Below are positions 2,036 to 23,884 of a stretch of 24,381 bases of DNA, in pieces. A program made the translations under genes and the position numbers. Numbering within the stretch: the first letter of the stretch is position 1; each line of letters begins with the position of its first letter. This DNA is from a virus. The stretch is from IMG/VR virus record IMGVR_UViG_3300021077_000040, positions 1 to 24,381 of that record. One strand, written 5' to 3'. The notes under the pieces were generated by a model. It ran no database searches. It saw nothing but the letters and a program-made list of their open reading frames with translations, and was not told where the DNA came from.

Positions 2036-2241
2036 CACTTTCTCTTTAAAACTTTATCCGCTTTGGCGTCAATTTTACTCTTTTGAGAAGGACTTAGTCG
2101 ACCTTTATTTTCCATTTCAGACGCTCTACTTTTAGCGTTACGAGCATGAGATTTGTCTTCTAAAGGATATTTTCGTTCTCCGGGAAGTCCAAATTCCTTT
2201 TTAGGAATTGCTTTCCGCGTTTTCGTCGATAGCTTCGCCAT
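2035..2241 (-). CDS. Small basic phage protein with PGERKYPLEDKSHARNA motif
   Basis: A 68-residue basic protein. The stretch FGLPGERKYPLEDKSHARNAKSRASEM followed by an SPSQKSKIDAKADKVL tail matches a conserved motif that I recall from small proteins of many tailed phages and from the ends of some larger phage structural or scaffold proteins; the role is not established. The start is fixed by an excellent AGGAGG site eight bases before the ATG. This places the gene start 41 bases inside the preceding gene. It ends in a TGATG overlap with the HNH gene. Confidence 0.65.
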   Translation of the reverse strand: MAKLSTKTRKAIPKKEFGLPGERKYPLEDKSHARNAKSRASEMENKGRLSPSQKSKIDAKADKVLKRK

Positions 2242-2455
2242 TTCCTTGGCCTCCTAAATTTTCCTGAGAAAGAACGGCCGCTTTTGCAGCGTCATCTTCA
2301 TGCTTTTTAATCATTTCATCACAGGCAAAAATTGCACCTACTAATTGATTAAGGTTATTTTGAGCTAAATCTTTTTGATTCGCAAATTGGGCGCGTTGTA
2401 ACTTTAACTGATCTAACAAACTTAATTGAGGTGCTTCCTGTTTTGCTTCTGACAT
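2201..2455 (-). CDS. Small coiled-coil hypothetical protein
   Basis: An 84-residue hydrophilic protein whose residues about 10-55 form a predicted coiled coil (LSLLDQLKLQRAQFANQKDL and a following amphipathic helix), with a disordered, acidic Gly/Asn/Glu tail. The ATG is preceded by GGAGAG. It is the first leftward gene after the plus-strand SGNH gene, and 162 bp separate the two starts, so it may be transcribed from its own promoter, although I could not find a convincing one. It overlaps the next gene by 41 bp. No family is recognised. Confidence 0.6.
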   Translation of the reverse strand: MSEAKQEAPQLSLLDQLKLQRAQFANQKDLAQNNLNQLVGAIFACDEMIKKHEDDAAKAAVLSQENLGGQGNGEAIDENAESNS

Positions 2456-2543
2456 CGTGTCTCTCCATCATGGTTAAATAAAATCAAAATTATCTTATCA
2501 CATTAAGAAGTCCATGCAATTATTGGCCTCTCTCTTTGGAACT

Positions 2544-2564
2544 TGTAAATAAATATTATTTACA
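2544..2564. promoter_or_regulatory. 9-bp inverted repeat in divergent gap (possible operator)
   Basis: The arms TGTAAATAA and TTATTTACA are perfect inverted repeats separated by three bases. They lie in the AT-rich 2456-2617 gap between the divergent SGNH gene (plus) and the 2201-2455 gene (minus), 53 bases before the SGNH start. There is no T-run next to the stem, so an operator is more likely than a terminator. No clear -35/-10 pair was found beside it. Confidence 0.4.
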
Positions 2565-2617
2565 GATGCACACATATTTGATTTAATTTTCAAATTATAA
2601 CCATCGGAACATCATTA

Positions 2618-3259
2618 ATGATTAAATTTTTGTCAATTTTTCTCTTCATAGTTACATTAAATTGCTTTTCTTCCTCATGTGAGGTTGATTCAAACCGTCC
2701 GATACTATTTTATAAAACTATAAGCACTATAGGTGACAGCATTACATGGCAAGGAGACGCTCAATATTTACGCTGTTTAATGCGTGATAATGGCCTACAA
2801 TATGAGTTCGTTGGAACTCATACCGATCCTTTCTATTTTCAACATGAGGGAGAAGGGGGAAACACTACCCTCCAAGTCCTCGAACGAATCAATCAAATTC
2901 CTGTGACCGATGCCTATTTCTTATTAATTGGAATTAACGACATATTACAAAATGTTCCTGAATCAGTCATTGTTTCCAACATTATTACTATTTCAAATTC
3001 ATTATATCAGAAAAATAATAATGCAAAAATTTACATAAGTACTCTATTACCTGTAAATTACCCACAAAACATTAAAGTTCAAAAAGTTAACTTAATGTTA
3101 CTTTCTAAATCAAAAATATGCCCTACTTGTACAATTATAGATATTGGCAGTCAAATGTATCATCAATCAAATTGGCCATCTTATTTCATTGAAGGAATTC
3201 ATCCAAATAAAAATGGCTATGAATTCCTTTCAAAAACCATTGTTCCTTATATTAAATAA
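2618..3259 (+). CDS. Secreted SGNH/GDSL-family hydrolase
   Basis: A 213-residue protein with an N-terminal signal peptide (Lys3, then a hydrophobic run from Phe4 to about Leu14). The SGNH blocks are visible: block I TIGDSIT with Ser41; block III LLIGIND (Gly and Asn of the oxyanion hole); block V EGIHPN with His195. The usual Asp of DxxH is Glu192 here. The family comprises esterases, lipases and carbohydrate deacetylases. A Cys at 21 follows Ser-Ser-Ser, a poor lipobox, so a soluble exported or periplasmic enzyme is more likely. The gene lies on the opposite strand to all late genes around it, overlaps the fibre gene 3' end by 13 bp, and has about 32 % G+C (193 of 600 over 2641-3240). It is probably a moron, acting on host envelope or surface polysaccharide. 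The ribosome site (CGGAAC) is weak. Confidence 0.85.
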   Translation: MIKFLSIFLFIVTLNCFSSSCEVDSNRPILFYKTISTIGDSITWQGDAQYLRCLMRDNGLQYEFVGTHTDPFYFQHEGEGGNTTLQVLERINQIPVTDAYFLLIGINDILQNVPESVIVSNIITISNSLYQKNNNAKIYISTLLPVNYPQNIKVQKVNLMLLSKSKICPTCTIIDIGSQMYHQSNWPSYFIEGIHPNKNGYEFLSKTIVPYIK

Positions 3260-5454
3260 GTACCTGTAATATATATAGCCGTATTATTAGCAAAATTGGT
3301 ATCAGTAAATACGGTTAATGCTCCAGCTGAATTGTTTGCAATTAATTGTACTATAGAGGCACCACCGTCAATTGCCGCCAAAGGTTGTAAAGTAAATACA
3401 AGATTAGTGCTTCCATAAGAATAGAAACTATCAATTGGGCCGGCTCGTGATGCTACGGGCAATCCTGATATAGTTGCAGCTCCTGTTGACGAACCCTTAG
3501 AAGATAAAATAATGCTTATAGCAAACGTTAATGTATTACCATGAGTTGTATAATATCCAGTTTGCACACTATAAGTAATCCCTACAGATGCGCCACCAAA
3601 TCGTAATACAGGCACAAAGGTACCGCTTGATGTATAAGCCACTGTGCCACCTGCACCAAAGGCTATCGCTGCGCTATCTGTTCCTGAAAGAGTTAATGTA
3701 TTACTTGCGTTTAGTGTCTTTCCATCTGCAATAGTTAAGGTGGATCCGGTTGCAGGGGTTGTTATAGTCACCTTGTTAATGCTAGTTGCGGCAGCTACGC
3801 CAAGGGTTGGTGTTACAAAAACCGCGTTTGTGGTTAATGAAATCGCCCCGCTTCCATTGACATTTGCGGATAAAGCCGTTGCAACCCCTGTGCCGAGACC
3901 GGTAATTCCGGCTATGGGAAGTCCTGTTCCGTTTGTAAGGGTAATGGATGCGGGAGTTCCCATAGCCAAACCATTTGGTAATGTTGTGCTGATGCTTGGG
4001 ACACTGCCTGCGCTAGTAACCAAAACGCCACTTGCAGCAGTAGCTAGGCCGCTTAACGTGGTTCCGCTTGCAGCATACCATGCCATCTGATTAATTAGTC
4101 CGCTATTAACAATTCCCGAGGCGGTTGCTGTAGTAGCCAAAGTACCGCTGGTCGGGAATGTGACGTTAGTAGCTCCGGTCATGGTAAAAGTAGATGCAAA
4201 AGCACCTGAGGTGGTTAAAGACCCTCCCAAAGTAATTGTGGATGCGCCATTATTAACCCCTGTACCCCCGCGTGTTCCGGATAATGTTCCTGTCCATCCT
4301 AAGGTTATAGAGGTGGCTTGTAAAAGCGCTGTTGAAGGCGTTCCTCCTAATGTGATTGTTACGTTAGTGTCGGGCGAGACTGTAAGTGCTGCAGGTGATG
4401 GCAATTGTGATGTGGTGGCTAATGTGCCGCTAGTAGGAAAAGTGACACTGGTTGCTGCGGTCATAGTAAATGTAGATGAAAACGCGCCGGATGTGGCTAG
4501 ATTTCCGGCAAGAGTTAAAGTATTAGATCCGTTATTTTCACCCGTACCTCCTCGCGCAGGACTCAATGTTCCAGTCCATCCGGCTGTAATGCTAACCGCT
4601 TGTAATAAAGCGGTTGCAGGTGTGCCACCTAACGTTAAAGTAATATTGGTATCATTAACTTCTGTTAATGCAGAGGGTGTTCCTGCGGGTATATCGGAGA
4701 GAAATGCCACAGTTCCTGATGCATCTTTAAAGGTAACTGTTTGAGTGGCAGCAGTATTAGAAAATGAAAATAATGTGGAATGCTGCTGAGCGGTTCCATT
4801 AAAAACATTAAACCCAAGCGTTGTATTGCCGCCAATTAGACGAACAGGAGCCGCTCCTTTAGATACGATATCGATTGGAATATCAGTGTCAGATCCAAAA
4901 GCTGATAGCTCAACCGCAAACCCTGATGAGTTATTCGTAACTCCAATATAATTAACAGCGCTTGGCATGCTAAGAAATGCCAATACAATATTTCCGTTAG
5001 CATCTTTAATGCCTGTGGGGGCTTGAAAATATCCTGTAAATCCTGGCCCATAATAATCAACGCCATTTGCAGCAATATCAAGCGTAGCTACACCTGTCGT
5101 AATAGTTTGTTTTAATATACCATTTGCCAGTGCGCCTAAGTTTTGCGCATCAGGTAGGCTGGAATCAGCGGTATAAGTAATAAATGGGCCAACGGTGAAT
5201 GCGCTTTCTTGTATTTGAGTCCATAAACCTAAAACGGCATCATAATATTCATAGAGTTGATCGTCCGTATTAAATCTAAGACGATAATTTATTGCTGGTG
5301 AGGGCGTAGGACGTGTGGCTGTAGATCCGGGCGCTAAAAAAGTCCATGGGATATCAAACAGAACGTTAGCCCCACCCAACAACCCCGGAAACTCATTGCC
5401 GTTGGCTATATCGCCACCCGCCGTCATTTGACTAAATTTTATAGTATCGACCAT
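3247..5454 (-). CDS. Large repetitive tail fibre protein
   Basis: A protein of about 735 residues, almost free of Cys and rich in Thr, Gly, Ala and Ser. The N-terminus (VDTIKFSQMTAGGDIANGNE) resembles the virion-attachment segment of phage fibres, followed by a domain with NYRLRFNTDDQLYEYYD. The middle contains two copies of a 94-residue module (ALT..DTN.T.TLGGTP.TALLQA.SIT.GWTGTL...RGGTG) and then the common ATSINKVTITTPATGSTLTI ADGKTL pattern. The last 150 residues (FVPVLRFGGASVGITYSVQT onward) resemble a globular C-terminal tip domain and would be the receptor-binding part. I take the ATG at 5454, six bases after AAGGA; a GTG lies one codon upstream. The 3' end overlaps the convergent SGNH gene. 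Confidence 0.85.
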   Translation of the reverse strand: MVDTIKFSQMTAGGDIANGNEFPGLLGGANVLFDIPWTFLAPGSTATRPTPSPAINYRLRFNTDDQLYEYYDAVLGLWTQIQESAFTVGPFITYTADSSLPDAQNLGALANGILKQTITTGVATLDIAANGVDYYGPGFTGYFQAPTGIKDANGNIVLAFLSMPSAVNYIGVTNNSSGFAVELSAFGSDTDIPIDIVSKGAAPVRLIGGNTTLGFNVFNGTAQQHSTLFSFSNTAATQTVTFKDASGTVAFLSDIPAGTPSALTEVNDTNITLTLGGTPATALLQAVSITAGWTGTLSPARGGTGENNGSNTLTLAGNLATSGAFSSTFTMTAATSVTFPTSGTLATTSQLPSPAALTVSPDTNVTITLGGTPSTALLQATSITLGWTGTLSGTRGGTGVNNGASTITLGGSLTTSGAFASTFTMTGATNVTFPTSGTLATTATASGIVNSGLINQMAWYAASGTTLSGLATAASGVLVTSAGSVPSISTTLPNGLAMGTPASITLTNGTGLPIAGITGLGTGVATALSANVNGSGAISLTTNAVFVTPTLGVAAATSINKVTITTPATGSTLTIADGKTLNASNTLTLSGTDSAAIAFGAGGTVAYTSSGTFVPVLRFGGASVGITYSVQTGYYTTHGNTLTFAISIILSSKGSSTGAATISGLPVASRAGPIDSFYSYGSTNLVFTLQPLAAIDGGASIVQLIANNSAGALTVFTDTNFANNTAIYITGTYLI
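4108..4671 (-). repeat. Tandem duplication of a 282-bp fibre module
   Basis: Two consecutive 94-codon units (4671-4390 and 4389-4108) encode nearly the same peptide; about two thirds of positions are identical. Shared landmarks are DTN, TLGGTP, ALLQA, GWTGTL, RGGTG, NNG, TSGAF, STFTM, TFPTSGTLATT. It probably lengthens the fibre shaft and offers a site for recombination. Confidence 0.8.
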
Positions 5455-5478
5455 CACGAATCCTTGTGATTAAGACCA

Positions 5479-5814
5479 TTAACCCTGAATTTGCCTAAAT
5501 GAAATACCAAAATAAGCATTCGCATCAGGGGTACTAAAATTTAAAACATCTCCCCCTCTAACATAACGCTTTTTAGGTTTAAACTCTACAAAAGGCTGTG
5601 CTGAAACACTACCTGCAACAGGAGTGGTTGGCACTACATTCAATCCTACATAAACGTTTGAATCTTGGTTGTATTCAAAATAAGCTTGATACGCCATATT
5701 ATTCGCCCCCGGTACAGTTACGGATTGGGGCGCTCCTGTTTCAACACTTACCTGAGCACAGGTATCGCTTATAGGCATTGTTTCAATATAATTAGCATTG
5801 TATTGGCTGGTCAT
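5479..5814 (-). CDS. Small virion-type hypothetical protein
   Basis: A 111-residue protein with mostly beta-strand character (SVTVPGANNMAYQAYFEYNQ, VYVGLNVVPTTPVAG, RYVRGGDVLNFSTPDANAYF). Its composition (many Asn, Val, Tyr, Pro, few Lys) matches its fibre neighbours. The ATG has AGGGAT upstream. It lies between the collar-type fibre (5837-7501) and the large fibre gene, separated by about 22 bp on both sides, so it belongs to the same operon. A decoration protein, fibre adaptor or fibre chaperone would fit the place; none is shown by the sequence. Confidence 0.6.
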   Translation of the reverse strand: MTSQYNANYIETMPISDTCAQVSVETGAPQSVTVPGANNMAYQAYFEYNQDSNVYVGLNVVPTTPVAGSVSAQPFVEFKPKKRYVRGGDVLNFSTPDANAYFGISFRQIQG

Positions 5815-5836
5815 TTTATATCCCTATAGTTAGTTA

Positions 5837-7501
5837 TTATTCGTATCTTATAAATTTACTTACTAGCGCGGTAGGCTGAATAAGACTAAATCCTGTTGGC
5901 GGTGTCGTTAACGGAACATTGGCCAATGACTGCCCCCCATTTGATACTATGTTTGCAGTTGTAGTGGCTGTTCCTGCAGCATAACCAAATCCTCCACCGC
6001 TTCCTTGTACAGGTACGGTAGTTGTATGTGTATGTTGGGGGATATTTGCCGCTACTAATGCTATGGATGCAGCTCCTCCTTTGTTACCCAGACCATTAAC
6101 GGGTAGAAGCGATCCGTAAGCACCTGCTGTTACATATCCGGTTAATAAAGGAACGTTAAAAGTAGTTGAACCATCGCCATTTCCCCAAGGGAAAAATGTT
6201 ACAACCTGCGTTCCTGTAACAGTAGCATTATTTGATATGGTTACCGTAGTCCCAACGATGTTAGTAACGGTGGTGTTTGCAGGAATTCCCGTACCCTCTA
6301 ACGGTATACCTATATAGAGAAGGTTCGCGGTAGAAAGAACAAACGTATTTGTTGATGCAATTAATGCCACCGATTGCTTTAATGTTATAGCCGCCAACAA
6401 TAATTGAAAAGCGTTTCTTATAATAGCCGTACCATCGGTTGGTAAATAATGCAAAGGTATTGCATAAGCCGCTGAATCAATAATTGTCCCCACAGGAACT
6501 ATGGGGTAAGCCGTATTGTAGGTATGGTCTATTTGTCTATTGATTGAATCTTGTTCAAAGCTGGGCTCTACCGGAACATCTTCAACAGCTAATTGAATAC
6601 TGGTTACATAAATATCAATATTACTTGGGAGCATTAATTGATATTCAATATAAGCAGCAGGTGGGATATTGGTATTGGTTGTTGCAGGTAACTGCGCATA
6701 CCCCGTAAACTCATTAAATGCCGGAACCACAGGGCTTAATGGCAATACGGTGCCTAATACTGTGCTGTTTGAGTCCACCAATTGAGCGGATATATTTTGT
6801 GGTAACTCATCAGGCCCTAGGCTTGCTGTGATTGCAGATGATACAAATTTATTTGCCCAAAGCATCCCGTTTTGTTCAAATCGTTGCGATAAAAATACAG
6901 AACCTGCTGTCCATCCATTCATAGTAATGCGTAGGGCATAAGGCGCATTACTTAGATTTGTCTCAGCATTATTGAGTGGAACTTGAGTAACTGTTACCGT
7001 TCCTGTTCCTGCTAAATTAAGAAACCACCCTGGAGCAACTTTTATTTTGCCCGCAATTGGTAATGAGGCTGCAGGGCCTGTGTAAGTATAAGGCGATGTA
7101 AAGTTAATCAATGCAAATTGTGGATTTGTTATTTGGTTGCTTGAAATAGTAGCCACCGTATCAACAGGTGTGGATCCTCCCTCACCCGGCACGTAGTTTT
7201 CCACTAAATAGATTAAAGGATCGCTTTGTGATGGCGGTGCAAGACCATTATTTTGTCGAAATTCAAGGCGATAAACTGTGTTAGGCTCAAAAAAAATATC
7301 ATTCGGGAGCGTGCCATTTCCTAGGAATTGAATCGGATCAGTCCATGGAACATTTAAATCCGGATCGTGAAAAACAGGCGCAGGCACATAGGGAATTTGA
7401 TTTGATAAAACCCACATCCAATAAGTATCATCAAATAACTTTCCCGTTAAATTCACCATAACCCAAATCGGATTGGCACCTCGTATACCTAATGATGGCA
7501 T
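5837..7501 (-). CDS. Tail fibre with C-terminal tail-collar-like domain
   Basis: A 554-residue protein. Residues 1-110 form an N-terminal domain (IRGANPIWVMVNLTGKLFDD; VYRLEFRQNNGLAPPSQSDP). Residues 115-310 look like a jelly-roll/carbohydrate-binding type beta domain (NPQFALINF, GWTAGSVFLSQRF). From about 335 the tail-collar fold seen in short fibres starts (PVGTIIDSAAYAIPLHYLPTDG) and continues at 440 with WGNGDGSTTFNVPLLTGYV, ANIPQHTHT and a C-terminal LIQPTALVSKFIRYE. The collar domain is interrupted at about 376-437 by an extra beta module. The ATG has AAGGGAG upstream. In P22 this region holds the tailspike gene; here a collar-type fibre probably plays the receptor-binding role. Confidence 0.8.
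   Translation of the reverse strand: MPSLGIRGANPIWVMVNLTGKLFDDTYWMWVLSNQIPYVPAPVFHDPDLNVPWTDPIQFLGNGTLPNDIFFEPNTVYRLEFRQNNGLAPPSQSDPLIYLVENYVPGEGGSTPVDTVATISSNQITNPQFALINFTSPYTYTGPAASLPIAGKIKVAPGWFLNLAGTGTVTVTQVPLNNAETNLSNAPYALRITMNGWTAGSVFLSQRFEQNGMLWANKFVSSAITASLGPDELPQNISAQLVDSNSTVLGTVLPLSPVVPAFNEFTGYAQLPATTNTNIPPAAYIEYQLMLPSNIDIYVTSIQLAVEDVPVEPSFEQDSINRQIDHTYNTAYPIVPVGTIIDSAAYAIPLHYLPTDGTAIIRNAFQLLLAAITLKQSVALIASTNTFVLSTANLLYIGIPLEGTGIPANTTVTNIVGTTVTISNNATVTGTQVVTFFPWGNGDGSTTFNVPLLTGYVTAGAYGSLLPVNGLGNKGGAASIALVAANIPQHTHTTTVPVQGSGGGFGYAAGTATTTANIVSNGGQSLANVPLTTPPTGFSLIQPTALVSKFIRYE
6191..6376 (-). other. Inserted beta module inside collar domain
   Basis: Residues about 376-437 of the fibre protein (TNTF...GTGIPANTTVT...TTVTISNNATVTGT..VTF) interrupt the collar domain between its AFQLLLAAI helix and the GNGDGSTTFNVP motif. 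The same kind of module occurs in the gp4-like protein (13385-13576), sharing TNTF, GTGI, TTV and T-[IL]-S. Confidence 0.6.
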
Positions 7502-7551
7502 TTATTAACTCCCTTTAAATTTAGTGCTTCCTTTTTGTCCATTTCCATGAT

Positions 7552-7574
7552 TATAATCCGTTTTTTAAGAGGAG
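7552..7574 (+). promoter_or_regulatory. Possible promoter and ribosome site for a plus-strand micro-gene
   Basis: A perfect TATAAT at 7552-7557 lies in the short gap between two leftward genes, and a purine-rich AAGAGGAG (7567-7574) follows 9 bases later, 7 bases before the ATG at 7582. There is no good -35 hexamer (TTCCTT or TCCTTT at the right distance), and TG lies at 7548-7549, one base off the extended -10 spacing. The order of box, short leader and ribosome site fits a promoter on the plus strand. Confidence 0.4.
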
Positions 7575-7581
7575 TTTAATC

Positions 7582-7653
7582 ATGTTGCTATTTATACTTG
7601 TCTGTGTACTTTTTTGGGGATCTTGGTTGGTTGCTGGTGATTTACTTAAATAA
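7582..7653 (+). CDS. 23-residue single-span hydrophobic micro-protein
   Basis: ATG at 7582 to TAA at 7651-7653 encodes a 23-residue peptide starting MLLFILVCVLFWGSWLV and ending AGDLLK. Residues 2-17 form one membrane segment with two Trp near its end, and the only charges are Asp20 and Lys23. The ribosome site AGAGGAG at 7-base spacing is among the best in the window, and a TATAAT box lies upstream. It is on the strand opposite to its neighbours, and its 3' end overlaps the end of the 7642-9030 ejection gene by 12 bp. Similar phage micropeptides act as holin-like or superinfection-exclusion proteins or bind host membrane enzymes, but nothing here chooses among them. It is too short to exclude chance entirely. 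Confidence 0.5.
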   Translation: MLLFILVCVLFWGSWLVAGDLLK

Positions 7654-9030
7654 ATCATAAAGCAATTTACCACCTGATGCCGTACCCCCTGCAAGACCTG
7701 TGCTTAAAAATATTTTCTTTAAATCTTTTATAGCCTTTTCTTTTTCCTGTATGCCTTGTGCATGTTTTGCCGCTTCAGTATGTTTTCCTAAGAAGTCTTT
7801 CATAGGTGCAGAGTTTTGTTTAAACAGTTTCTCTGGATTTTCGGGAACCAATCTCAAATCGCTTTGAACCATCTTACCTATCCCCTTACGCAAATTAGGG
7901 GCATAGTAAGTATCCATTATCTGTTTGTGCGCTTTCTTTCCTTGTCTCAATACGTGGGCTACGTCGATATGACCTTCTTTTAATAAATGTTTTTCTAAAA
8001 AGTCATTCATACGGTCACGCAAATCCATAATATCCTCGCCTTCATTTTCTTTTACAAGATCATCTCCGGCTAATTGCTTGGTGCCTTTTTTATAGAGGCT
8101 GCTTTGAATTTTATGAATAGCGTCATAATCACCGTTTTTGGCTCGCTCAAATAACTCATTAACGGAGGTTTTATTTTTAGGAAAATACTCTCGCGCTTGT
8201 GTTAAAAACTTTTCTTGCATGGGTATTTTAATATCCCGTTTCTTAATGGCTTGCTTTACCTGACCATAAAATTCATCTGCGGTTGATTGCAAGCGGTCAT
8301 GCGGTTTTTGTACGGCCTCCACCAATGCCTCTGGAGTAGACTTATTAGACAGTCCACGTAAGAAAGCAGGCAGTTTTTCGCCCACCTTACCCGCAGCTTT
8401 TCCGGCTAATGTTCCGGCACCTCCTAAAGCTAGCGCACCACCCGCACCCAAAGCCCTGTCTGTAGCATTTCCGGGTGTAGCAATAGCACCTGTTTCCGCC
8501 AGTGCAAGCGGTGTTTGTAATGCTTTAGGCACTTTAGCTAGTGCATTAACGCTTTTAAGTCCACCCATAAGCTTACCTAATAAGCCACCAGCTCCTATTA
8601 ATTCTCCTGTCATTTGCACTGATTTTTGGCCTGTTCCATGAGCTTGCGGAAATAATTCACGCAAATCTTGGCTATTCGCTAAGTTCTGGGTGAATTCGGT
8701 AGGAATTAAGCCTGCTACTCCCCGAATAGGAATCGACGCACCTTGTAATAATCCGCCTGCAGCTGCGGGAATATAATCCGTAACGTCGGTTATTCCTTTA
8801 GCCGCTGACTCAAGCATAGGCGATTTATCTTTAGGCGTAATCTTTAGCATCAAATCGCGCATCCAATCAGGCAAATTTGGGTGATCTTTAGATATTTTTT
8901 GACGAGCTAATTCCATCACTTTTTCTTGATCTTCGGGTGAAAGATCGTCAAATTCCTTTTTGCTGGCGTCTTCATGTGGCTCGTCGGCAAGCAGGTCTAT
9001 AGGTTCATCTGCAAGTAAGTCAATAGCCAT
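7642..9030 (-). CDS. Ejection (DNA-injection) protein, P22 gp16 position
   Basis: A 462-residue protein. It starts with a twice-repeated acidic octapeptide, IDLLADEP, then a charged helix. Residues about 85-215 are Gly/Ala/Leu-rich and weakly hydrophobic (AAAGGLLQGASIPIRGVAGLIP; ALGAGGALALGGAGTLAGKAAG), like membrane-inserting regions of phage internal virion proteins. The rest is highly charged and helical up to a last hydrophobic segment (IFLSTGLAGGTASGGKLLYDLF). In P22 the three ejection proteins gp7, gp20 and gp16 leave the virion to form a channel through the host envelope; this gene is third in the corresponding order. The TAATG overlap with the gene upstream and the AAGGGG site support the start. 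I see no peptidoglycan-hydrolase motif. Assignment rests on position and composition. Confidence 0.6.
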   Translation of the reverse strand: MAIDLLADEPIDLLADEPHEDASKKEFDDLSPEDQEKVMELARQKISKDHPNLPDWMRDLMLKITPKDKSPMLESAAKGITDVTDYIPAAAGGLLQGASIPIRGVAGLIPTEFTQNLANSQDLRELFPQAHGTGQKSVQMTGELIGAGGLLGKLMGGLKSVNALAKVPKALQTPLALAETGAIATPGNATDRALGAGGALALGGAGTLAGKAAGKVGEKLPAFLRGLSNKSTPEALVEAVQKPHDRLQSTADEFYGQVKQAIKKRDIKIPMQEKFLTQAREYFPKNKTSVNELFERAKNGDYDAIHKIQSSLYKKGTKQLAGDDLVKENEGEDIMDLRDRMNDFLEKHLLKEGHIDVAHVLRQGKKAHKQIMDTYYAPNLRKGIGKMVQSDLRLVPENPEKLFKQNSAPMKDFLGKHTEAAKHAQGIQEKEKAIKDLKKIFLSTGLAGGTASGGKLLYDLFK

Positions 9031-10160
9031 TATTTCCCCTTAGCCATCAATTGATCGATAAGCTGCCCAATAGGAATTTTTCTTAATTTAGCTGTGTGTA
9101 AAAGATTTTCCTTAGTGTATTTAGGGTTTACCTTGATTAACTCAGGCCCGTATACAGCTAATATTTGATCGTCATCCTCGCCTGCTGGGGGAGACCCACC
9201 AGATTCTTCATTTTTAATTTCTTGCTTATTATCGCCAACAACAAAACTTCCCGTTTTATCATCAAAATCTAGTTTAAGCGGGGATGTTCCTGCCTTGTTA
9301 AAGGTATCAAGCTCCTGCTCGGTAATTTGTTTCAATTGATTAAATTGCTGCAAGGCCACCTCAGGATTCTTTTTCCACTCACTAGGGTTGGTTAATTGGT
9401 CAATCTTATCCGTTGCAGAGGGCTGGATTGAATCACCCCAAAACTGGCGTAATTGTTTTGATAAGGTTTTAGCACTCGTCAACGCTTTTTGATAGGCCAT
9501 AAATTCAGCAGGTGGTGTACCCAAAGCTGCCTTTATAGAGTCCATCATGAATTTACCCTGTCCTTGTGGCCCGGAATATTGGACTAAATCCTCAGGCTTA
9601 ATAGAGTCCATAGTAATTTTAACGTTTTTGGCATAGGGTATTTTATTACGGATAGCCGCATCAGTGGTCTTTTTTCCTAACGCCTGATTATAAACACGGG
9701 CCTCGTCCTCACTAATAACATGTCCATCATCCCCCGATACCATGCCAGCGCTAATTTTCTGGGCGCCTTCTCCTTTGCCACCTTGCGTGCCTCCAGAACC
9801 TTTAGTCCCTAAACCACCGTTGAGTACGCCGTTACCACGCGCCGCAGCTGCCAGTTTTTCTTCGGGCGTAGCGGCACGCCAAGGCGCTAAATTTGATAAT
9901 TGCGTCCTATAATCCATAAGAGATTGATGGCCTTGCATTGCCATCTCATGCGCAGCTTTGGCCTGTAAATAACGCGGATCGCTTTCGCCGTATTGATTTT
10001 TTAATTGTTCAACATACATAGCGTTTGCCACATCTCCCGATGGGTGCAATGAGCCATTGTATTTGGCGTTCATAATCTTGGCGAACATATCCGATCCGGT
10101 ACGCAAACCCTTTAACAGGCCCTCACCCGGGGCGTCAGGCAATGGAATATTTAAAGGCAT
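9030..10160 (-). CDS. Probable ejection protein, P22 gp20 position
   Basis: A 376-residue hydrophilic, mostly helical protein with a Gly-rich linker at about 105-135 (RGNGVLNGGLGTKGSGGTQG) and a Pro/Glu-rich acidic linker near 315-330 (NEESGGSPPAGEDDD). The C-terminus (VNPKYTKENLLHTAKLRKIP) looks like a small helical domain. No enzyme motif was found. It lies between two other ejection-type genes, with TAATG overlaps on both sides, and has AGGAGG six bases before the ATG. The role as the second ejection/internal virion protein is inferred from gene order. Confidence 0.5.
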   Translation of the reverse strand: MPLNIPLPDAPGEGLLKGLRTGSDMFAKIMNAKYNGSLHPSGDVANAMYVEQLKNQYGESDPRYLQAKAAHEMAMQGHQSLMDYRTQLSNLAPWRAATPEEKLAAAARGNGVLNGGLGTKGSGGTQGGKGEGAQKISAGMVSGDDGHVISEDEARVYNQALGKKTTDAAIRNKIPYAKNVKITMDSIKPEDLVQYSGPQGQGKFMMDSIKAALGTPPAEFMAYQKALTSAKTLSKQLRQFWGDSIQPSATDKIDQLTNPSEWKKNPEVALQQFNQLKQITEQELDTFNKAGTSPLKLDFDDKTGSFVVGDNKQEIKNEESGGSPPAGEDDDQILAVYGPELIKVNPKYTKENLLHTAKLRKIPIGQLIDQLMAKGK

Positions 10161-12884: not shown

Positions 12885-13828
12885 TAAATACCTGCCCTAA
12901 CGCGCCATGCGCCATTAAGTAAGCTTTGCTCATCGCCCATAATAGAAAGATTAACCTCGCTCGCAGACTCCATATTGTCCTTAAGCTCGCGGTATTCTGC
13001 CTCTAAATCATCCGTCCACGCGCTACCACGTCCTTTAAACTTAGAAACGTATTTAGCGGTGGCATACATAAAATAAAGCTGCCAATACTCAGGAACTGAG
13101 CTCATATCATCATTAACGGTAAGGCTTGGAAGTTGAAATTTTCCTCTACAATAAAATTGATAATATTGACTGGGCGCAGGATATAAGCGCATTGAAACAA
13201 AGTTTGTATTTGGAAATGTGATTACAAACCGGGGCAAGCCTTGAAGCGGCTCATATTTCCATGCGGATAAATAATCATCTCGTGATTTATCAATCAACGG
13301 ATAGGTAACGCCGTTTAATACAAGCCACGCATTGTCTAAATTAGCTAGACGCCCCATTTTAATATAAACGGTATTGTTAGCCGCGCTAAAGGTTAAAAGG
13401 GAGGATCCTGTAAATAAAACATTTTGAGATAAAGTAATAGTGTTATCCGCTATCGAAAATACGGTTGTCGGTGGAAAAGGTTGTATCCCCGTACCCGTAA
13501 CCACCTCTCCCACGGCATAAATACTGCCGTCTGCCACCGTAAACGTATTGGTTCCTGCCGTAAGAAGTACCGTTTCTGTTTGGGTGCCAAAAGCAGGAGT
13601 GGGATATGAGGGATCGCAAAATACAATATCTGTATTTCCAATATTAACAGCAGCGGTCACCGTTTGCGCTACGGTTAACATAAGTCCTGAGCTTGCATAC
13701 GATTGCATTATTTGATTAAGTACACGCACCGCTAGCGCCTCATCATCCCCGTGCAATGGCACCGTAGGGTTTGATGCGCTAATCAATCGATACATTTGAT
13801 AAACAAATTCTCGGACTGTTAAGAACAT
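12884..13828 (-). CDS. P22 gp4-like head-to-tail adaptor
   Basis: A 314-residue protein. The N-terminal helices (LTVREFVYQMYRLISASNPT ... EALAVRVLNQIMQSYASSGL) and the C-terminal helical part (PEYWQLYFMYATAKYVSKFKGRG; LEAEYRELKDNM) match the gp4 family, which forms a dodecameric ring under the portal. P22 gp4 has 166 residues; here an extra beta-rich insertion of about 150 residues separates the two helical parts, including a module at 85-148 like one in the fibre protein and a segment YIKMGRLANLDNAWLVLNGV that resembles common tail-adaptor beta domains. P22 gp4 also hydrolyses peptidoglycan; I see no motif that shows this here. TAATG overlaps on both sides couple it to its neighbours. Confidence 0.75.
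   Translation of the reverse strand: MFLTVREFVYQMYRLISASNPTVPLHGDDEALAVRVLNQIMQSYASSGLMLTVAQTVTAAVNIGNTDIVFCDPSYPTPAFGTQTETVLLTAGTNTFTVADGSIYAVGEVVTGTGIQPFPPTTVFSIADNTITLSQNVLFTGSSLLTFSAANNTVYIKMGRLANLDNAWLVLNGVTYPLIDKSRDDYLSAWKYEPLQGLPRFVITFPNTNFVSMRLYPAPSQYYQFYCRGKFQLPSLTVNDDMSSVPEYWQLYFMYATAKYVSKFKGRGSAWTDDLEAEYRELKDNMESASEVNLSIMGDEQSLLNGAWRVRAGI
13385..13576 (-). other. Beta module inserted in gp4-like protein
   Basis: Residues about 85-148 of the gp4-like protein (ETVLLTAGTNTF..., VTGTGI, TTVFSIADNTITLS, SSLLTF) align with residues 376-437 of the collar-type fibre. TNTF, GTGI, TTV and a final TF are at matching positions. Confidence 0.6.
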
Positions 13829-21025: not shown

Positions 21026-21373
21026 TTAATCTATTAACTTATCGATAATAGCCTCGACAATCTTGTCGCTTACGCTAGGCGTATCATCTTTTTCACGCCA
21101 TCTAGCGCGAGTTTTTAACCAAAATATTTGCGCCTTAATGTCGTCGCCGTCTATGGCTTTACGAAACAATTTAGCCGCCACCTTAGCGTTCGCACGTACC
21201 ACGCTGTTATCCAGCTCATCGCGGTAATGACGCTCTAAGGTGTCAATTGATATACCTATGTAGCCTGCGATCTCTTCTTGCGTATTGCCAAAGCTTACAA
21301 GAGCCGCAACCTCAGCCCTTGTTTTTTCGGTAGGCTCGTGAGGTTTGGTCTTCCCTGATTTCGGTGTGGCCAT
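21026..21373 (-). CDS. terS: Terminase small subunit
   Basis: A 115-residue protein. Residues 16-50 form a helix-turn-helix (TEKTRAEVAALVSFGNTQEE IAGYIGISIDTLERHYRDEL) with the pattern seen in many small terminases. Residues 55-95 (VRANAKVAAKLFRKAIDGDD, then AQIFWLKTRARWREK) form the oligomerisation helix; the WLKTRARWRE motif is very typical of this family. The protein would form a ring that recognises the packaging site and regulates TerL. It overlaps the methyltransferase gene upstream by 62 bp in another frame; GAGAGG six bases before the ATG supports the start. TerL follows after 121 bp. Confidence 0.85.
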   Translation of the reverse strand: MATPKSGKTKPHEPTEKTRAEVAALVSFGNTQEEIAGYIGISIDTLERHYRDELDNSVVRANAKVAAKLFRKAIDGDDIKAQIFWLKTRARWREKDDTPSVSDKIVEAIIDKLID

Positions 21374-22580
21374 CCTTAGCCTCTCTTACGGCTTTTTGGC
21401 CGCTGTAATTCTCATAGCGTTGTATAATAATATCGCAGTATTTTGGATCTAACTCCATCATAAGCGCACGACGCTTCGTCTTCTCACACGCTACCATAAG
21501 CGTACCACTACCCGCAAACGGATCGTAAACATACTCACCCGGGTTAGTATGATGTACTATAGAGCGTACAAATAACTCCACAGGCTTTTGCGTAGGGTGT
21601 GCCGTCTTATCATCCTTTGTGCCTGAGTTTGCCGCATTAGGTGCCTCGCAATCCCAAACCGTAGTTTGTTTGCGATCACCCTTCCAATTAGACTTAGCCC
21701 CCTTTTTAACCGCATACCAACAAGGCTCGTGCTGCCAGTGGTAATTAGCACGGCCTAAAACAAAATGGCTCTTACGCCATATGATTTGTTGTTTTGTTTC
21801 AAAGCCCGCATCACGCAAATTGGCCATGACAATATCAGTATAGGCGCTGGCGTGCCAAACGTAGGCAATAGAGCCGGGAAATAGCGAGTAAGTATCAAGC
21901 CAGTCGGCCCGATCGTCATTCATGACCACGTTTTCATTATTCTTGCCACCCCGCGCCTCATTGCGCCATGACATATCAAGCTTTACGCCATAAGGTGGGT
22001 CGGTAACCATAGTATTTGGGTGCTGGCCGTCTAATAAACGGTCGACGTCGCTTGAAACAGTAGAGTCCCCACATACCAACCGATGGTCGCCGAGCAACCA
22101 CACATCACCAAGAACAGCAATAGGCGCCACCGCCACCGGAACATCATCCTCACCACAAAATACCTCCGGCAGTTCATCAGGAAATATTTCGCATAATTCT
22201 TCAAGGTCAAACCCCGTTAATGTAAGGTCATAGTCAAATGATTTTAAATATTCAAATTGATTAAGCAAAATATCTTTATCCCACCCCGCATCAAGCGCAA
22301 TCTTATTGTCAGCAATAACAAGCGCTGCTTTTTGTTCGGGGGATAATCCGGGCAATACAATACAAGGCACATCAGGCATATTCATCAATAGGGCAGCAGC
22401 TAGGCGCCCATGCCCCGCAATGATGGTATTGTTTTCGTCAATAAGAAGGGGATTTGTAAAACCAAACTCGTTTATAGAGCGAACAATCTTTTCAATTTGC
22501 TCTACAGAATGTGTACGAGAATTGGCCTCATACATGGCCAATTCCCCTACAGAAACGCTTTTATAGTCCCGCAAAGCCAT
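21312..22580 (-). CDS. ParB-domain / DNA methyltransferase fusion
   Basis: A 422-residue protein of two parts. Residues 1-150 form a ParB/Srx-type N-terminal domain (VGELAMYEANSRTHSVEQIE; AGHGR at 55-59 replaces the GERR of ParB; then MPDVPCIVLPGLSPEQKAAL VIADNK). Residues 155-395 form a DNA methyltransferase with DPPY at 194-197 (catalytic), HPTQKP at 328-333 and DPFAGSGT at 353-360 (AdoMet binding). DPPY before FxGxGT is the beta-class order; the enzyme should methylate adenine N6 or cytosine N4. Such fusions are widespread in phages and prophages and probably protect phage DNA from restriction or mark it. No cognate restriction enzyme gene is visible. It is coupled to the small gene upstream (TAATG) and overlaps terS. 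Confidence 0.9.
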   Translation of the reverse strand: MALRDYKSVSVGELAMYEANSRTHSVEQIEKIVRSINEFGFTNPLLIDENNTIIAGHGRLAAALLMNMPDVPCIVLPGLSPEQKAALVIADNKIALDAGWDKDILLNQFEYLKSFDYDLTLTGFDLEELCEIFPDELPEVFCGEDDVPVAVAPIAVLGDVWLLGDHRLVCGDSTVSSDVDRLLDGQHPNTMVTDPPYGVKLDMSWRNEARGGKNNENVVMNDDRADWLDTYSLFPGSIAYVWHASAYTDIVMANLRDAGFETKQQIIWRKSHFVLGRANYHWQHEPCWYAVKKGAKSNWKGDRKQTTVWDCEAPNAANSGTKDDKTAHPTQKPVELFVRSIVHHTNPGEYVYDPFAGSGTLMVACEKTKRRALMMELDPKYCDIIIQRYENYSGQKAVREAKDGHTEIREDQTSRAYRKNKG

Positions 22581-23512: not shown

Positions 23513-23706
23513 TGACAGAAGAACATATGTTATCGTGCGTTTCGTTTTTGTTAGGTAAAACGCACGGGGGAATTATGAATATTATTCACACAGCTATAGA
23601 CGAAGATGACTTTCGGGACTTATTAATAAAATTTGAAGCCGAGCTCAGAAAAGATATAGAACGGCTTTATTATCCGGATATTATTCGTGACCCAGCTTTA
23701 AATTAG
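23512..23706 (+). CDS. Small protein, third gene of divergent operon
   Basis: A 64-residue protein, mainly helical, with 13 acidic and 7 basic residues. The C-terminal half (DEDDFRDLLIKFEAELRKDI) is an amphipathic helix. The ATG overlaps the stop of the previous gene and has GGAGAG upstream inside that gene. Its last 26 bp overlap the end of the convergent cold-shock gene on the other strand, so the two transcripts collide or share termination there. No family is recognised. Confidence 0.6.
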   Translation: MTEEHMLSCVSFLLGKTHGGIMNIIHTAIDEDDFRDLLIKFEAELRKDIERLYYPDIIRDPALN

Positions 23707-23884
23707 TAGCAACAGCACCTTTTGGGGATTGTGAGGGGGTGAAATGAACCTGATCGCCCTCTTTTAAGCTTTTAAATCCCTGTGTTTGAATTTCTTTGAA
23801 GTGTATGAAGTAATCTTTGCCTTGACTCTCAACAAACCCAAAACCTTTTTGATCGTTAAACCACTTTACAATTCCGTTTTGCAT
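23681..23884 (-). CDS. Cold-shock-domain protein (CspA family)
   Basis: A 67-residue protein of normal family length (about 67-70). It has the N-terminal GIVKWFNDQKGFGFVES with RNP1 KGFGFV at 13-18, and RNP2 DYFIHF at 24-29, where most family members have [DV]xFVHF; Trp8, Phe15, Phe17, Phe26, His28 and Phe29 are the nucleic-acid-stacking residues. These small OB-fold proteins bind single-stranded RNA or DNA and melt RNA structure or prevent termination. A phage copy may tune translation or anti-termination, or aid replication. The ribosome site (GGATG) is modest. Its 3' end overlaps the convergent operon by 26 bp. Confidence 0.93.
   Translation of the reverse strand: MQNGIVKWFNDQKGFGFVESQGKDYFIHFKEIQTQGFKSLKEGDQVHFTPSQSPKGAVATNLKLGHE

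Follow-up and report, generated by a model that had tools for sequence, protein, structure and literature searches.

The DNA of a soil phage analysed here, an IMG/VR virus record of 24,381 bp taken in full and referred to below as the window, belongs to a podovirus-like phage, judging by a P22-type portal identified among its proteins, coat protein relatives of the P22 type (about 25% identity) and terminase relatives with identities of up to 43%. On the plus strand, at 2618..3259, lies a gene with an ATG start for a 213-aa SGNH/GDSL hydrolase with predicted export, which was recognised from its ORF, from matches to PF13472 (Lipase_GDSL_2; E 4.7e-15, score 57 bits with a cut-off of 32.9) and phrog_14008 (E 5.5e-18), from a family alignment and from a structural model. 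Its convergent neighbour (3247..5457, minus strand, ORF call) encodes a fibre-like protein of 736 aa. The two genes lie tail-to-tail with an overlap of 13 bp that includes the stop codons, in agreement with the opposite orientation and 3' overlap described in an earlier, sequence-only reading of this DNA. On its other side, the SGNH gene is separated by a divergent, AT-rich intergenic stretch of 162 bp (2456..2617) from p84 (2201..2455, minus strand), which gene order in relatives identifies as the right-hand boundary gene of the slot described below. The sequence-only reading had placed the gene inside the fibre region; it does adjoin the fibre gene but its position is better put as the 3' edge of that gene, before a run of small genes. 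The same reading had taken low G+C content as a sign of cargo. G+C content is indeed low, at 31.0% compared with 42.7% for the window, but it does not mark out the SGNH gene because the endonuclease VII gene nearby is lower still (28.1%; p68/p84 about 39%), which also weakens low G+C as a sign of foreign origin. Elsewhere in the window (21312-22580, minus strand), a gene for an N6/N4 DNA methylase with a fused ParB-N-like stretch was noted.

Comparison with related phages indicated that the SGNH gene occupies a slot of accessory genes. A search with the coat protein yielded 286 related records, of which 80 were kept and the 50 largest searched, the 30 smaller ones being left out. None of these 50 relatives matched PF13472 (control genomes were positive in 9 of 14 cases), and none matched the window SGNH protein itself in a search that had no positive control of its own. 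Gene order was conserved among relatives, running from the fibre gene across the slot to p84/p68 and, further on, to p284. Of 31 slot loci surveyed, 29 had both boundaries readable; among these 29 relatives, 13 had no slot ORF of 100 aa or more, 15 had same-strand ORFs in the slot, and an opposite-strand ORF of 102 aa was present in two, one of which had same-strand ORFs as well. In relatives such as L107, L109, L110, L115, L116 and L121, the selection of ORFs of at least 50 aa gave none between the fibre gene and p84. A Pfam scan of nine slot ORFs from seven relatives identified the late-strand slot proteins of L108, L113 and L122 as pectate-lyase-like (PF12708) with a weak endosialidase N-terminal match, and the slot gene of L131 as tail-fibre-like. 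By these domain matches, the slot hosts receptor-side genes, some of them putatively polysaccharide-active, and the window SGNH gene fills it backwards and with a leader. The flanking gene order, being the same as in relatives, argues against an assembly chimera. Judged by this comparison, the gene is a genuine accessory (moron-like) insertion, and the proposal that it behaves as cargo is supported in this respect, with the gene carried by none of the 50 relatives searched and the genes on either side of the slot adjoining in relatives.

The N-terminus of the window protein, residues 1 to about 21 (2618..2680, plus strand), has the properties of a putative export signal. Thus, the 12-residue Kyte-Doolittle mean reached 2.57 and the pLDDT of the AlphaFold model fell below 50 at residues 1-4 and 7-19. 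A hydrophobic N-terminus was noted in all six proteins examined, i.e., the window protein and those of phage records L139, L140, L145 and L146 and of Legionella gresilensis (L149). The first alternative in-frame Met, Met56, lies within the catalytic domain. The hydrophobic N-terminus is compatible with the signal peptide of the sequence-only reading. Directly after the leader, Cys21 was nearly invariant in a 10-member family alignment, in which Cys53 was invariant. A lipobox is expected to carry Leu, Val or Ile at position -3; since Cys21 is preceded by S-S-S, with none of these residues at -3, a lipoprotein is not favoured. Taken by its leader, the window SGNH protein is apparently exported.

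Homologues were found in a small number of phage records and in Legionella. Scanning IMG/VR and the genome collection with a single sequence revealed no homologue. Alignment-based scans identified five in phage records (L139, 58% identical; L140 and L141, 46%; L146, 40%; L145, 39%), and a further scan for phage homologues added none. A distant GDSL gene was also noted in a Vibrio phage (L082, PQ189289; 5677-6438), where it adjoins RepA-like and ParA-like genes. The L. gresilensis protein, 52% identical, was among the matches listed in the genome scan, and a profile search of 143 Legionellales genomes found four two-domain copies, distributed over three genomes; of 369 gammaproteobacteria sampled, the remaining 368 gave no homologue. 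An additional domain at the N-terminus, about 90-100 residues long and modelled at low confidence as all-beta (pLDDT 69.7), is present in the Legionella proteins and in L140 and is lacking from the proteins of the window, L139, L145 and L146. The two-domain proteins of L. gresilensis and of two Legionellales genomes resemble the window protein in their SGNH domain (49-53% identity), their leader and their Cys pattern but differ from it in the additional beta domain and in the Asp of block V, which is Glu in the window protein. A phylogenetic tree joined the window protein to L139 (90/89) and did not resolve the remaining phage and Legionella branches.

The occurrence of these homologues suggests Legionella, or bacteria close to it, as a candidate source or host. 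In a search for prophages, portal-like proteins were found in 2 of 143 Legionellales genomes and were just 24-28% identical, and a DNA search gave matches of 70-89% identity in many Legionellales genomes, located almost only at the phage cold-shock gene. This gene (23681-23884, minus strand) encodes a cold-shock protein recognised by PF00313 (E 1.3e-21). A separate 35-bp stretch of the window (13178-13212) was 89% identical to Legionellales genome G068 (E 5e-4), which may reflect chance or a spacer. The four cellular homologues found, all from Legionellales and all with hydrophobic leaders, are compatible with a Legionella-type exoenzyme carried as lysogenic-conversion cargo that benefits the host bacterium (inside amoebae, for example) rather than the infection cycle, and a ParA-like partition protein in 5 of the 50 relatives (G013, G023, G026, G028 and G035) hints at plasmid-like persistence of some relatives. 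We consider this explanation unlikely, however, as a scan of 10 ORFs of G013, part of its total, recognised no integrase, and the window spans just 24 kb.

Comparison of the window protein with the nine other members of its family, which are about 38-58% identical to it, indicated that the putative catalytic residues are conserved. The sequence is G39-D-S41-I-T-W in block I and E192-G-I-H195-P-N in block V. The GDS motif of block I (G39-D40-S41) was invariant in 10 of 10 members, as were the putative nucleophile S41, the putative oxyanion residues G80 and N107, and H195. The codons of E192-G-I-H195 (3191..3202, plus strand) carry Glu in place of Asp, at the usual distance from His. Because the spacing between W186 and block V is the same in the window protein and the Legionella relatives, Glu192 occupies exactly the position of their Asp, and the claim of the sequence-only reading that Glu replaces the catalytic Asp was thereby confirmed. 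At this position, Glu was seen in the window protein and L139 only, the other eight members having Asp, which was also present in all 29 other readable Legionellales SGNH proteins and in six more distant phage SGNH proteins.

The rarity of Glu192 fits a loss of function, with the gene as a decaying or inactive passenger, but other evidence makes this very improbable. The reading frame is open, and Glu192 is common to two proteins, those of the window and L139, that are 58% identical and that have also kept Ser, Asn, Gly and His; its retention at this distance argues for function. Moreover, passages of a review of SGNH enzymes (PMC9487903) give the acid of block V as Asp or Glu and describe active dyads that have no acid. 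In SGNH hydrolases, the block V acid is located three residues ahead of His, an arrangement present in E192-x-x-H195 if Glu is allowed but not if the acid is restricted to Asp. As far as these passages go, Glu is thus unusual rather than the mark of a dead enzyme. If the enzyme acts on an O-acetyl decoration of LPS, it would provide SGNH enzymology with a natural Ser-His-Glu example.

Further indications of function were obtained from the AlphaFold model (pLDDT 87.3), which was compared with known structures by Foldseek and VIA-align. Among the structural matches listed, the best were CE3 acetylesterases (5b5s, Z 23.0, rmsd 1.8 A for 175 aligned residues; 2vpt, Z 21.1), which are fungal or clostridial enzymes of about 20-22% identity. 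The sialate O-acetylesterase of the gut bacterium Phocaeicola (Bacteroides) vulgatus (7pzg/6njc) came close to them (Z 19.9, 164 residues aligned at 28% identity, phmmer E 1.1e-5). The matches spanned the whole catalytic domain, and the predicted structure has the alpha/beta/alpha fold of SGNH hydrolases. PAF acetylhydrolase, TesA and similar enzymes scored a little lower, at Z about 18, and acetylesterases are therefore not distinguished from lipases or thioesterases by fold alone. These results, together with the PF13472 match, support the assignment of the protein as an SGNH hydrolase with a fold like that of carbohydrate esterases, nearest to those of CE3 and sialate esterases.

NanS-p proteins belong to another SGNH subfamily (SASA). 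Their reported occurrence in Stx prophages as sialate O-acetylesterases (PMC10462455) is a further instance of such enzymes carried by prophages. Another paper (PMC13123978) describes SGNH fibres of Klebsiella prophages as active esterases and those of coliphage G7C as deacetylating LPS, i.e., as phage acetylesterases that act on surface polysaccharide. These are domains of virion fibres, whereas the window protein is a stand-alone product with an export-type leader, encoded as a 213-aa ORF on the strand opposite the fibre gene and not as a domain within a fibre polypeptide. The viral models with this fold that were named as phage proteins were mostly large and fibre-like, and the stand-alone, apparently exported form is the odd one among these matches.

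The location of homologous genes in other phages differed from that in the window. In L139, the SGNH gene closes a series of plus-strand genes, among them Sak4-like and SSB-like ones, and its L146 counterpart has a RecT-like gene on one side and a helicase gene on the other; these DNA-metabolism neighbours suggest that the protein is probably not a virion part. In L145, the gene opposes early genes, whereas that of L140 comes after the fibre gene and shares its strand, as is probably also the case in L141, truncated at its start. These varied contexts indicate that the gene moves about, mostly outside structural operons. The sequence-only reading held that the same gene in the orientation of the fibre operon in relatives would speak against its proposal, and the arrangement in L140, probably also in L141, is of this kind, although both proteins are distant (46% identical) and no close relative has the gene. 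That arrangement, the position of the slot beside the fibre gene, and the SGNH domains of many phage tail fibres, seen among the fold matches and described in PMC13123978, agree with a receptor-binding or virion-associated esterase that is encoded on the other strand by happenstance. Such a role is nevertheless improbable for a stand-alone protein of 213 aa whose gene runs antisense to every structural gene in the window and which has an export-type leader, a feature shared with L139, L140, L145, L146 and L149.

With regard to expression, no sigma70-like promoter was found on the plus strand in 2456-2617, and the number of sigma70-like sites in 2200-3500 (7) was close to the 6.4 expected from shuffled sequences. 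Since late transcription would cross the SGNH gene antisense, we infer early or persistent expression, and since the gene of L145 runs opposite early genes, timing is probably not uniform across the family. The antisense position relative to the late operon also bears on a role as lysis helper, in which the exported enzyme would de-O-acetylate peptidoglycan or attack phospholipids and so aid the phage lysozyme. Periplasmic export would be compatible with this role, relative G013 has a gene for a phage lysozyme (PF00959) after its p284 gene, and Ape1 peptidoglycan O-acetylesterases were among the fold matches of a two-domain Legionella relative, which were obtained with the low-confidence model mentioned above and carry little weight. 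Against it, besides the antisense position, stand the neighbours of the gene in L139 and L146, which belong to DNA metabolism rather than lysis, the best fold matches of the window protein itself, which are to CE3 and sialate esterases, and the dispensability of the gene in all 50 relatives searched; we regard a lysis helper as rather unlikely.

In contrast with these alternatives, the reading to which we give an even chance is that of an exported, probably active carbohydrate O-acylesterase, encoded by a moron, that edits glycans of the host envelope. De-O-acylation of envelope glycans is favoured by the leader and conserved cysteines, by the sugar-acetylesterase-like fold and by the slot. 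The gene, related to a small two-domain Legionella family, would have been inserted in reverse orientation, with the fibre gene on one side and the small genes of the late operon on the other, and would have a transcript to itself, produced most probably at an early stage or during persisting infection. The product would be exported by Sec and lose its leader ahead of the conserved Cys21, after which Ser41 and His195, with Glu192 as the acid, would take O-acetyl or other small O-acyl groups off host envelope glycans. The benefit to the phage would lie in an altered receptor, be it through unmasking, through exclusion of rivals or through release of progeny from debris. The block to superinfection suggested in the sequence-only reading is possible. 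A 2026 paper on Legionella (PMC13306086), citing work of 2025, reports that O-acetylation of LPS by lag-1 accompanies resistance to attachment of phage LME-1, and a deacetylase might accordingly open cells to phage as well as close them.

A broader version of this reading, which we put forward as a long shot, is that a family of exported O-acetylesterases is carried by phages that infect Legionella-like bacteria and serves to edit how the host LPS, with its legionaminic-acid-type O-antigen, is acetylated. Such enzymes would resemble the haemagglutinin-esterases with which animal viruses destroy receptors but would be made inside the infected cell and not on the virion, would include one lineage with Ser-His-Glu and would be an answer to resistance conferred by O-acetylation. 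A literature search of partial coverage found no paper on Legionella-like phages with a stand-alone SGNH protein that is exported. Known phage SGNH esterases are mainly parts of tail fibres, whereas the one described here is stand-alone and apparently exported and has its nearest cellular kin in Legionella; the novelty lies in this form, in the slot, in the Legionella link and in the Glu. Should the enzyme act on O-acetylation of Legionella LPS, it would offer a simple, testable case of a phage that edits the receptor of its host from inside.

Two further arrangements of the gene and its fibre neighbour were considered. An invertible fibre cassette was rejected for now, as no inverted repeats surround the gene of L139 and those of the window are short and imperfect. 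Co-transfer of a fibre tip and the esterase was also rejected, as the 58.6% match between the L139 and window fibres covers residues 119-263 and not the C-terminal tip. L139 has a DNA invertase gene (6944-7564, phrog_125) near its SGNH and fibre genes, with no inverted repeats in 6500-9471. In L145, the region from about 4369 to 7331 contains several small ORFs in both orientations that have MNDFTKEEL near their starts and that make up near-identical inverted repeats.
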